In this document: positions 37,934-46,400 of the stretch, piece by piece
How positions within the stretch are numbered: the first letter of the stretch is position 1
Layout: the number at the start of each line of letters is the position of its first letter
Assembly: GCF_009796805.1 (NCBI RefSeq)
Contig: NZ_CP047029.1
Location: 2,990,001 to 3,054,000, forward strand
Length of the DNA stretch: 64,000 bases
Source of the DNA: Algibacter sp. L1A34
Lineage (GTDB): Bacteria; Bacteroidota; Bacteroidia; Flavobacteriales; Flavobacteriaceae
Direction of reading: 5' to 3'
Program-made: the position numbers and the translations under genes
Notes under the pieces: generated by a model
Database searches by the model: none
Told to the model about the DNA's origin: nothing
What the model saw: the letters and a program-made list of their open reading frames with translations, nothing else

Positions 37934-40102
37934 TTACTTCTTCATATGCTCCACCAATTCCAACTGATCAATACTCACATTTGTAGTAAAGATGCCATAG
38001 TTTACAACAGCTTTATTTTTTTCAATTTTATCAATGGTACCAACGGCTCGGCCATCTTCCATGCGGACGCGATCGCCTAAACGAATTATCGATTTTGGTT
38101 TAGGAGCTTCAATGGCTTTTTTCTTCGCTTCTTTTTTCTTTTCGCGAATAACTTCAACCTTTTTTTCTACTTCTTTTTTTACCTGAACTTCTTTGGCTTT
38201 TACTTTCTTTTTTTGCTTTACAGTAACGCGTTTACGTTTAGAATTTTCAATTTGAACTATTTTAAAAAGTTCGCCCATGAGTTCTTTTTTCTGTTTGTTT
38301 TCAAAAAACTTCTCGGCAATATCATTAACCTTTTGGCCTAAGTAAATTAAACGTTGATTGCTATCGTAGAGTTCTTGATAGCTTTCTAGTTTCTTTTGGA
38401 TTTTGGTATTTATTTCTTCAAGTTTATCGGCTTCTTCTCCTTTTTTCTTTTCGTTTTCTTTTAATGATTGGCCTGTTTTTTCTAATTTAGAACGTTCTTT
38501 TTGAAGTTTAGCAATTGTGGCATCAAAACGAACTTTGCTACGTTCAATTTTCTTTTTAGCTCGGTTTATTAAACTATAAGGAATACCATTTTTCTGTGCA
38601 ACTTCAAAAGTAAAACTACTTCCTGCTTGTCCGATTACGAGTTTAAATAAAGGTTCAAGCGTACGCTCATCAAAAAGCATATTTGCGTTAAGCATATTTG
38701 GCATTTCGTTTGCCAAAATTTTCAGGTTAGAATAGTGTGTGGTAATAATTCCAAAAGCTTCGCGATGGTAAAACTCTTCTAAAAAAGTTTCCGCTAAAGC
38801 ACCTCCAAGTTCCGGATCACTCCCTGTTCCAAATTCATCTATTAAAAAAAGTGTGTTTTTGTTACACTTCTTCAAGAAATAATTCATTTGTTTTAAACGA
38901 TAACTATATGTACTTAAATGGTTTTCAATGGATTGGTTGTCGCCAATATCACTTAATATTCTATCGAATAAACAAACGGTGCTCCGTTCGTGTACAGGAA
39001 TTAGCATACCACTTTGCAACATAACTTGTAGTAATCCAACGGTTTTTAAAGTTATACTTTTTCCGCCCGCATTTGGTCCAGAGATCACAATAATCCTGCT
39101 ATCTTTTTTTAACTCTATACTTTGCGAAAATATTTTTTGTTTTTTTTCTAAATTGTTTAAATAGAGTAGTGGGTGGAAGGCATCACGCAAATTCATGCTG
39201 TGATCTTCTGTAAATTCTGGTAAAATCCCGTTCATAGATTTGGCGTATTTCGCTTTCGCGGAAATAAGATCTATATCGATTAAAAAATCTTGATAATTTT
39301 CTAATAATGGTAAAAACGGACGAATAAAATTGGTAACATCTTTTAAAATACGAATAACTTCTTCTTGCTCTTCGTATTCTAAATTATTTAGTTCACGTGA
39401 ATGTTGCAGCGTAGTTTCTGGTTCTATATAAACAATACTTCCTGTTCTACTACCGCCCATTATGGCGCCTTTAACTTTACGGCGGTACATCGCTTTTACT
39501 GCTAAAACACGTTTGTTGTCTACCACAGATTCGCGAATATCATCTAGATATTCCATGCCGTGGTAAGTATTTAAAGCGGAACTGAAGCTCGCGTTTATTT
39601 TTCCTTTTATTTGGTTTATAGATTGACGCAAACCATATAAAACAGTAGAGGCATTATCTTTTATGTCTCCAAAACGATCAACAATAGCATCTACTTTTTC
39701 AATAAGTACTTTGGTAACTTCAATATGCGATGCAAATTGGTGTAATTCTGGGTAATATTCTGCAAATTTCTTTAAAAACACAAGTATTGCATTTACCGAA
39801 ATCGACATTGAAACAATTTTTTTTAAGCCATGCACTTCTAAATAAGTGTTTTCTATATGAAGGAGTTTCAATTCTTTTGCAATAGTATCGAAACCATGGT
39901 TAGGTATACGATTATCGTTATATAATGACGATAAATATTCGTTAGTGAGTTGTAATGCGTTTAGGAGTTCTTCTTTGGTTCTAAACGGCTCTATTTCTAA
40001 AGCCTTTTGTTTGCCTAATGGTGTTACGCAAAGCTCGCTTACTTGTTGTAAAACGGCATGGAACTCTAAATCTTGTAATGTTTTTTCGTGAATGTGTATC
40101 AT
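37934..40102 (-). CDS. mutS2: MutS2-type ATPase lacking a Smr domain
   Basis: Predicted 722-residue protein. The MutS-like core and clamp cover about 1-300. The ABC-type ATPase has Walker A VISGPNAGGKSITLKTVG near 340 and LFLIDEFGTGSDPELGGALA near 420. A long coiled-coil/lysine-rich segment follows (about 515-670, ending in VKKEVEKKVEVIREKKKEAK). The C-terminus is a small SH3-like domain (RLGDRVRMEDGRAVGTIDK). The Smr nuclease domain that ends classical MutS2 is absent. MutS2 proteins act in recombination suppression or in resolving collided ribosomes. Transcribed with the downstream HEPN-like gene. Confidence 0.88.
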   Translation of the reverse strand: MIHIHEKTLQDLEFHAVLQQVSELCVTPLGKQKALEIEPFRTKEELLNALQLTNEYLSSLYNDNRIPNHGFDTIAKELKLLHIENTYLEVHGLKKIVSMSISVNAILVFLKKFAEYYPELHQFASHIEVTKVLIEKVDAIVDRFGDIKDNASTVLYGLRQSINQIKGKINASFSSALNTYHGMEYLDDIRESVVDNKRVLAVKAMYRRKVKGAIMGGSRTGSIVYIEPETTLQHSRELNNLEYEEQEEVIRILKDVTNFIRPFLPLLENYQDFLIDIDLISAKAKYAKSMNGILPEFTEDHSMNLRDAFHPLLYLNNLEKKQKIFSQSIELKKDSRIIVISGPNAGGKSITLKTVGLLQVMLQSGMLIPVHERSTVCLFDRILSDIGDNQSIENHLSTYSYRLKQMNYFLKKCNKNTLFLIDEFGTGSDPELGGALAETFLEEFYHREAFGIITTHYSNLKILANEMPNMLNANMLFDERTLEPLFKLVIGQAGSSFTFEVAQKNGIPYSLINRAKKKIERSKVRFDATIAKLQKERSKLEKTGQSLKENEKKKGEEADKLEEINTKIQKKLESYQELYDSNQRLIYLGQKVNDIAEKFFENKQKKELMGELFKIVQIENSKRKRVTVKQKKKVKAKEVQVKKEVEKKVEVIREKKKEAKKKAIEAPKPKSIIRLGDRVRMEDGRAVGTIDKIEKNKAVVNYGIFTTNVSIDQLELVEHMKK

Positions 40103-40347: not shown

Positions 40348-40406
40348 GCATTTCGTCGATAAAAAGCAGTTAATAAACTACTTAAAAAAGCATTTCGTCG
40401 ATAAAA
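40348..40406 (+). promoter_or_regulatory. Candidate operator of the spr operon: two 17-bp direct repeats
   Basis: GCATTTCGTCGATAAAA occurs without mismatch at 40348-40364 and 40390-40406, start-to-start 42 bases (four helical turns). The near copy ends 26 bases before a TAnnTTTG box, so the centres would lie near -50 and -90, the place for an activator. The remaining bases of the 40103-40490 spacer are AT-rich with no gene. I do not know a regulator that binds this sequence. Confidence 0.65.
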
Positions 40407-40432
40407 GATGTCTTTTCATAGGATAAATATTG

Positions 40433-40440
40433 TATTTTTG
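40433..40440 (+). promoter_or_regulatory. -7 box of the spr operon
   Basis: TATTTTTG is a full TAnnTTTG match, 50 bases before the first ATG of the operon. The -33 TTTG element is poor, consistent with activator dependence on the upstream repeats. Confidence 0.55.
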
Positions 40441-43412: not shown

Positions 43413-46400
43413 TGAAAAAGTATATTCTACATACCGTTTTATTTTTGTGTTTAACTACTCAGGTCTATTCTCAAGAGAATGATATTGCCGCGTTTGCATT
43501 ACCTGTTAGGAATTCGTTAAAATTCAACAAATATGCCTTAAATCCTACATTTAGTTTTGTGCGGGAACAAAATAAATATATAAGTATTACCAATAAAAGG
43601 CAATGGGTTCAATTCGAAAATTCTCCTGAGAATTATTTATTAAGTTATTCTGGCCGGTTTAGTGAAAATATTGGAGCCGGTATTGGTTTATTTCAGCAAA
43701 ACATTGGTGTATTTACTAACTTTGGCGGTGTTTTGAATTTTGCTTACAATGCTGTTCTTAATCGAGACAGTAATTTAACTTTTGGTACTAATATAGCATT
43801 TTATCAAAGTGGTATAAATGAAGGTAAAGTTGTTTCTAACTATCCTGATTCAGCATTAAATAATATAGAAAAAAGCTCAGTTATTACAATAAATCCAGGG
43901 CTTAATTATGGAACTAAATTCTTAGATTTTGGTGTTGCTATTAATAATTTGGTTTCATATAATATGAATTCTTCCGAACTTATTGAAGAAAATCCAGAGC
44001 AAAGTGTTCAAGGTCATATTATGTACACGGGCTATATACAAAGTCGTGGTTTTTTTGATGAAAGTAAATTTTCTGGTTTAGTGAGATCGGAGTTTAAAAA
44101 AGATGAAACTGTAGTATCTGGAATTATGATGCTTGCTATGCCTAAAGGTATATGGACACAAGTTGGATATAATACGCTTTATGGTGTTTCGGCAGGATTA
44201 GGTTTAAATGTAAGTAATTCAATAGCAATAGAATATAATTACGAGAAATCTATGGGGGAGTTGTCAGGATTTGGTAATTCTCATGAAATTACTTTGGCTT
44301 ATAAATTCAAAAAGAAATTTAGATATGATTATAGTGATGACGAGGAAGAAACTTCACTTTTTTCTCCATCAAATAAACCAAAACGATCAGCTTCAAAACA
44401 ATCAGCTAAAACAAGTGAAAGTGATAAAGAAAAATTTAGAAATAATAGAGTAGCAAGTTCCGAAGTAAAAGAAGAAAGAAAAGTTGAAAAAATAGCAGAA
44501 GTAAAAGCTAAAGCAGAAGAAGTTGCTAAAACGAGAGAAATAGCACGAGAAAAAGCTAAAACGGCAAGAGTAGCTAAAGCAAATCAATTAGCATACAAAT
44601 TATATAAAGCGAAACAAGCTAAAGAAGCAGCAAGAGCAAAACAATTAGCAAGTGCGCAAGCTAGAGCGGAAGAAGTTGCTAAAGCTAGACAATTAACAGC
44701 GGAACAAGCTAAAGCAGAAGAAGTTGCAAGAGCGAAACAATTAGCTGAAGAACAAGCTAAAGCAGAAGAAGTTGCAAGAGCGAAACAATTAGCTGAAGAA
44801 CAAGCTAAAGCAGAAGAAGTTGCAAGAGCGAAACAATTAGCTGAAGAAAAAGCTAAAGCAGAAGAAGTTGCGAGAGCGAAACAATTAGCTGAAGAAAAAG
44901 CTAAAGCAGAAGAAGTTGCAAGAGCAAATAAATTGACAGAAGAGCAAGCTAAAGCAGAAGCAGCTGCAAGAGCAAAACAATTAGCAGAAGAAAAAGCTAA
45001 AGCAGAAGAAGTTGCAAGAGCGAAACAATTAGCAGATGAAAAAGCTAAAGCAGAAGAAGTTGCAAGAGCAAATAAATTGACAGAAGAGCAAGCTAAAGCA
45101 GAAGAAATTGCTAGAGCGAAACAATTAGCAGATGAAAAAGCTAAAGCAGAAGCAGTTGCAAGAGCAAAACAATTAGCGGATGAAAAAGCTAAAGCTGAAG
45201 AAGTTGCAAGAGCAAATAAATTGACAGTAGAGCAAGCTAAAGCAGAAGCAGTTGCAAGAGCGAAACAATTAGCAGATGAAAAAGCTAAAGCAGAAGCAGT
45301 TGCAAGAGCAAAACAATTAGCGGATGAAAAAGCTAAAGCAGAAGAAATTGCAAGAGCGAAACAATTAGCAGAAGAAAAAGCTAAATCTGAAGAAGTTGCA
45401 AGAGCAAATAAATTGACAGAAGAGCAAGCTAAAGCAGAAGCAGCTGCAAGAGCGAAACAATTAGCGGATGAAAAAGCTAAAGCTGAAGAAATTGCAAGAG
45501 CAAAACAATTAGCAGATGAAAAAGCTAAAGCTTTAGAAAATCAACCTGTGGCTGTAGTTACGCCACAACCGATGATTGATATAACGAAATTAACCGATGC
45601 ATCTAAGATAAAACAAGAGGATTTATTAAGCCGATTAAATGAAAAAACGGCTGGCAAACAAAAAGATCTTGATGATTTGAAAAAGGAAAATGATTTAAGA
45701 GATAAAGGTATTGTTAGCCCTCCAAAACCATTTAGACGTGTTTCTGAAGAAAATGCAGCTTTAGAAGCCTTAAAGATTGAGGTTGATGATGTTATAAGTG
45801 CAAGAACTGATAAAATAAAAGAGATTGAAGATTTATACAACCAGAGACGTAAAAAGGTTAAAAGTAAAGACGACCCTCTTAATATTATTTATTTAGATGC
45901 CATTGAGCTTCTATATAAAGAACAAAAAGAAGCAAAAGAAACGAAGGAAAGATTAGTTTCTACACTTGAGCGTATTAAAATAGCAACAGATATTGAAAGA
46001 AAACGTCGTATTAAAAAAGCTGATTATGAAAATGAGGAGGATCGATTTAAGAAGGATAGAGCAGCTTTAGCTAGAATTAAAAATAATACAGAAGTTAGTA
46101 CAGAACCGCTAACAGAAAGTGATTTCGATTTTGGTAAAAAGTTAAGTAATATTCAAATTATGAAAGGAGTAGATAATGTGGAAAGCGGATATTATTTGGT
46201 AGTTGCCGTACATAGTGATGTTGCTAAAAGAGATGCTTTTTTAGCCAAAGCAGTGGCTGCAGGACAATCAAATATTGATTTCTTTTATGATGTTAATAGT
46301 AGTAACTATTTTATTTATTATCAAAAATTTGATGATATCGAAATGGCATCAAGAGTTTTACTAAACAGAAACAATAAACCATACGATAGTAGAATGTCAA

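Follow-up and report, generated by a model that had tools for sequence, protein, structure and literature searches.

LytTR regulators act on operators that generally comprise two repeats, direct or inverse, of 9-11 nt with 11-13 nt between them (PMC4847170). YpdB, a LytTR response regulator of Escherichia coli, binds a direct repeat of GGCATTTCAT (PMC4847170), and examination of the E. coli genome confirmed the arrangement GGCATTTCAT-N11-GGCATTTCAT in the yhjX promoter, with a period of 21 bp. AlgR, a LytTR protein of Pseudomonas aeruginosa that regulates motility and surface functions, recognizes the site CCGTTCGTC (PMC4064291). LytTR proteins have no common consensus, so that an operator match amounts to similarity to named members of the group and is no proof. 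Within Bacteroidota, transcriptional control of type IX secretion is known from the PorX/PorY-SigP system of Porphyromonas gingivalis, where the regulators are PorX and the ECF sigma factor SigP; no LytTR operator is described for that system. Literature searches with the core TTTCATCGA returned no relevant paper, and no paper connecting LytTR with spr or T9SS genes was found; one paper on Flavobacterium johnsoniae with a mutated LytTR regulator held no target information.

The window, i.e. the whole stretch of 64,000 nucleotides considered here (G000:C1:2990001-3054000), belongs to the 4.64-Mb, single-contig genome of Algibacter sp. L1A34. It displays three half-sites, A, B and C, in front of an sprC-sprD-sprF-sprB operon (Table 1). 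From their resemblance to the named operators, these half-sites very probably constitute an operator of the LytTR class. The TTTC cores of B and C are 21 bp apart, which corresponds to a half-site of 10 nt followed by a spacer of 11 nt; most relatives have a period of 20 bp and a spacer of 10 nt, one base below the LytTR range of 11-13. The half-sites GCATTTCAT and GGTATTTCAT are close to the YpdB sequence, and both operators display a direct repeat of 21-bp period, the core ATTTCAT and tandem half-sites upstream of the promoter. They differ in that the half-site of the window runs on into CGAtaaa, that three sites are present instead of two, and that the promoter-proximal site extends into the -33/spacer region. 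YpdB furthermore comes from another phylum and has a transporter as its target, in contrast to the adhesin operon found here. The site of AlgR has TTCGTC in common with the window copies, but AlgR sites are single, dispersed and found in either orientation, whereas those of the window form an array of 21-bp period.

Table 1. Features of the array, the operon behind it and the candidate regulator gene (window positions; contig coordinates for L124)
Feature	Position	Strand	Remarks
Site A, distal half-site GCATTTCGTCGATAAAA	40348-40364	+	42 bp upstream of B
Site B, half-site GCATTTCGTCGATAAAA	40390-40406	+	First member of conserved tandem pair; kept at 97 of 105 sprC orthologues
Site C, half-site TCTTTTCATAGGAT	40411-40424	+	Core TTTCATAGGA at 40414-40423; 21 bp after B
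Predicted Bacteroidetes -7 box TATTTTTG	40433-40440	+	Fits TAnnTTTG; from sequence match and spacing to C in relatives
Divergent MutS-V gene	37934-40102	-	Upstream neighbour of the array
sprC-like gene, 437 aa	40491-41804	+	First of the operon; named by gene order, without Pfam match
sprD-like gene, 481 aa	41967-43412	+	CHU_C type IX secretion signal domain
PorP/SprF family gene, 1002 aa	43412-46420	+	Long repetitive tail
Giant surface adhesin gene, 5778 aa	46488-63824	+	SprB-like by position and size only
L124, orphan REC-LytTR gene, 231 aa	C1:2863921-2864613 (L325:4419-5114)	-	Between priA and rpsF-rpsR-rplI

Organization of the array and of the operon

The initial annotation of this region had described two exact 17-bp copies of GCATTTCGTCGATAAAA, 42 bp apart from start to start. 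Both copies are real and lie where they had been placed; the unit itself is a three-site array of 21-bp period, of which site C had been overlooked. Ungapped extension of the two copies reached 26 nt with 88 % identity. Scattered copies of the 17-mer had been considered as an argument against a specific role, and a search of the whole genome recovered the exact sequence only at these two positions, together with one single-mismatch copy elsewhere. When up to three mismatches were allowed, 43 matches were obtained, as compared to 55 for a reversed-pattern control. This absence of genome-wide enrichment indicates that a single half-site is too weak as a query. Within the window, the pair was the sole non-coding close repeat of 17 nt. 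When the 388-nt intergenic region was shuffled 5000 times by dinucleotides, an exact repeat of 17 nt or longer arose in three cases (p about 6e-4), which makes for a moderate argument on its own, so that the reality of the repeats is decided by their conservation.

The spr names were attributed according to Pfam domains, gene order and size only. The SprC-like protein of the window was closest to that of Algibacter lectus (78 %), followed by that of A. miyuki (75 %). A second sprC-like gene, with 58 % identity, was encountered in the same genome (G000:C1:3745790-3747049, upstream region L131) and displayed no array upstream. The tail of the PorP/SprF gene contains a tandem repeat of 48-bp period (GAAAAAGCTAAAGCAGA..., window positions 44700-45530), which encodes a Lys/Ala/Glu-rich stretch past the PorP_SprF domain.

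Conservation upstream of sprC

Regions upstream of sprC were gathered from 50 named loci and from further genomes of the family, which yielded 105 distinct regions. The tandem pair B-C, followed by the -7 box, was present upstream of 97 of these 105 sprC orthologues from Flavobacteriaceae, in the form TGTATTTCATCGA-aaTaaT-TGGTATTTCATrGA and then the -7 box; the consensus of site C in relatives was GTATTTCATrGGA. Sites B and C were the most conserved part of the array and were nearly universal among sprC orthologues. Among the 94 strong cases, B and C were spaced by 20 bp in 92 and by 21 bp in two, namely the window and A. lectus. In 79 of the 94 promoters, the -7 box started 21-23 bp past the aligned C start. 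In 48 of the 94, a half-site equivalent to A, with the consensus TGnATTTCATCGATAAAA, preceded B by 41-44 bp; elsewhere it was met as one stray copy at 63 bp. On this distribution, site A is lineage-specific. Twelve of the 46 promoters without site A (e.g. L036, L039, L078) displayed a TGTAAGAA-like element about 33 bp upstream of B, which a different factor may recognize.

Perfect identity between the 17-bp copies was not conserved: the copies differ from each other in A. miyuki (L069), and both contain CATCGA in A. lectus (L031). Such divergence, together with the few shuffles that attained 17 nt, would suit repeats arising by chance or by neutral duplication and devoid of function; this explanation is refuted by the position, spacing and sequence kept in the 97 promoters across many genera, and its probability is close to nil.

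Of the 50 loci, those of A. lectus and A. miyuki were the only ones with a MutS-V gene as upstream neighbour. As the neighbouring gene varies between genera, the array is a feature of the spr operon and moves with sprC. Conservation in spite of a changing neighbour speaks for the earlier proposal that these are putative regulator sites, located on one face of the helix and controlling the spr operon. In one genome (G090), an extra gene of 150 aa precedes sprC; the array lies upstream of the extra gene, and a second, weaker match directly upstream of sprC. Two Flavobacterium loci (L067, L068) had another gene directly upstream of sprC and displayed no array.

Distribution of related sites

A search model based on sequence only, comprising the tandem pair and the -7 box and trained on sprC promoters, was applied to 149 genomes of the family, some of them from closely related species. 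Owing to this training, motif strength drops with phylogenetic distance. The best site of the Algibacter sp. L1A34 genome was the spr promoter itself, with 29.5 bits, followed by a few weaker sites, some of which precede genes for a beta-helix protein, an M15 peptidase and a protein with bacterial Ig and cadherin-like domains. Strict two-site patterns occurred in this genome in chance numbers only, apart from the spr site. Two ACATTTC-type half-sites, also 21 bp apart, were observed elsewhere on its minus strand (G000:C1:2378738-2378775; L029, L030).

Globally, the 149 genomes contained, besides spr promoters, other promoters of equal or higher score, the best attaining 54.5 bits. These non-spr promoters precede large secreted proteins with MAM, Laminin_G, M14 peptidase and Por_Secre_tail domains, which are predicted T9SS cargo. 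The idea that the element might also precede other T9SS or adhesin genes was thus borne out in relatives, for T9SS-cargo genes.

The candidate regulator

The genome encodes 17 REC-LytTR proteins, most of them beside a LytS-type kinase. L124 is an orphan among them, as no PHFxxN kinase was found in its neighbourhood of about 4 kb and the usual LytS/LytTR two-component pairing is therefore missing. Its Pfam matches to Response_reg (66.9 bits) and LytTR (68.6 bits) were both over the cut-off, and the receiver motifs VVDD, FLDIEMP and HKP were recognized by eye. Autoregulation provided no clue, since none of the 17 LytTR genes, L124 included, was preceded by an array. L124 and YpdB are about 26 % identical and differ in that L124 is without an adjacent kinase; the same genome encodes several further LytTR proteins that resemble YpdB as much or more, and for this reason the similarity was not used as an argument.

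Five of the 17 proteins (L124, L117, L126, L129 and L114) were profiled over the 149 genomes. L124 had an orthologue in 69 of the 70 strong-motif genomes, in 40 of the 42 with an intermediate motif and in seven of the 37 without motif (strong versus none, Fisher p 9e-19, a co-occurrence that is confounded by phylogeny and by the presence of sprC). In the 33 genomes devoid of L124, a motif match at E<1e-3 was restricted to two (G079 and G088). Both also lack the neighbouring hisS, which indicates that the L124 region is missing from these fragmentary assemblies (81 % and 87 % complete). Divergence of hisS served as yardstick of phylogenetic distance: at matched divergence, the motif was present at E<0.01 in 21 of the 25 L124-bearing genomes and in none of the 17 others (Mann-Whitney p 7e-7), the group difference in divergence being non-significant and phylogeny thus partly controlled. 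The motif was also kept in some L124-bearing genomes without a close sprC orthologue (e.g. G001, G011, G103, G106 and G120). Only L124, of the five regulators profiled, followed the distribution of the motif. L117, L126, L129 and L114, with orthologues in 61, 20, 27 and five of the 149 genomes, respectively, were rejected as general regulator.

For 21 of 37 genomes, including that of Algibacter sp. L1A34 (11 kb), a distance of 8-34 kb separated the strongest listed non-spr site from the L124 gene. Five such regions were read and displayed the order priA, L124, rpsF, rpsR, rplI, ..., hisS, and then a T9SS-cargo gene preceded by the array; Pfam domains were checked for four of these cargo genes. 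Conserved gene order ties the cargo gene to hisS as well, and the linkage between L124 and the array consequently counts as supporting evidence only. The single-contig, complete genome G118 had no hisS match at E<=1e-100, and its histidyl-tRNA synthetase was possibly replaced. L124 itself was 87-99 % identical across many genera, as compared to about 50-78 % for SprC, despite having no adjacent kinase.

Its distribution, supported by its linkage to a second array, points to L124 as the probable binder. The initial annotation had assigned no regulator to this sequence, for which a regulator class, LytTR, and one candidate gene are now proposed. The operator might instead be bound by another, or several, of the remaining 16 LytTR regulators, one with an adjacent LytS-type kinase. 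The abundance of kinase-paired LytTR proteins is in line with this, as are the degenerate half-sites before other surface-protein genes of the same genome, which are expected if paralogues share specificity; it is nevertheless rather improbable, L114, L126, L129 and L117 being missing from many strong-array genomes, and L124 alone among the five being both nearly universal and linked to a second array.

Direct repeats with a unit of about 17 bp and a period of 21 bp are also recognized by AraC/XylS-type proteins. Half-site conservation over roughly 14-17 bp and the period of 21 bp are compatible with such a protein, or another helix-turn-helix regulator, as binder of the array. The core, however, equals a published LytTR operator, and no linkage of an AraC-type gene to the sites came to light, the profiling having covered five LytTR proteins, which leaves this second alternative quite doubtful.

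Promoter architecture and proposed mechanism

Counted from the predicted -7 box, A, B and C lie at about -90, -48 and -28, in agreement with the earlier estimate of about -90 and -50 for A and B. The sprC transcript is predicted to start at about 40445. Site C spans -33 to -18, i.e. the -33/spacer region of the predicted promoter. The -33 TTG is missing in the window and in A. lectus, while in many relatives TTG is part of C.

The reading preferred here, to which a probability of roughly 0.68 is given, is that the repeats are LytTR operator half-sites and that L124, as their most likely binder, switches the sprC-sprD-sprF-sprB operon. Two protomers of the phosphorylated regulator would occupy the tandem pair B-C on one face of the helix, with a period of 20-21 bp, and the bound regulator would then switch transcription of the operon. 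Site A, exactly two periods upstream, would provide an additional contact that strengthens or tunes the switch in the Algibacter group of genera. Phosphorylation of L124 would presumably be carried out by a kinase. At the window promoter, devoid of the -33 TTG, L124 would help RNA polymerase, and it would also control the gene of a T9SS-secreted surface protein situated about 11 kb away and adjoining hisS.

As site C covers the -33/spacer region, repression constitutes the main mechanistic rival: the same regulator, bound to the same sites, would block this region through C, which lies between -33 and -18 and includes the -33 TTG in many relatives. Most characterised LytTR regulators are activators, however; the distal position of site A is better suited to activation, and the lack of a -33 TTG in the window and in A. 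lectus suggests reliance on an activator. Repression is accordingly considered unlikely, and L124 would be expected, with fair confidence, to activate the spr operon. A broader proposal, with even odds, is that L124 serves gliding adhesin and T9SS surface-protein promoters as their dedicated regulator throughout much of the Flavobacteriaceae, by way of a tandem YpdB-like operator.

Should the assignment to L124 be true, expression of the gliding adhesin in a large group of marine bacteria would be governed by a defined promoter switch, with a half-site and one candidate gene. The YpdB-like LytTR recognition sequence would then extend from gamma-proteobacteria to Bacteroidota, and an orphan LytTR regulator that was formerly unassigned may control the giant gliding adhesin genes.
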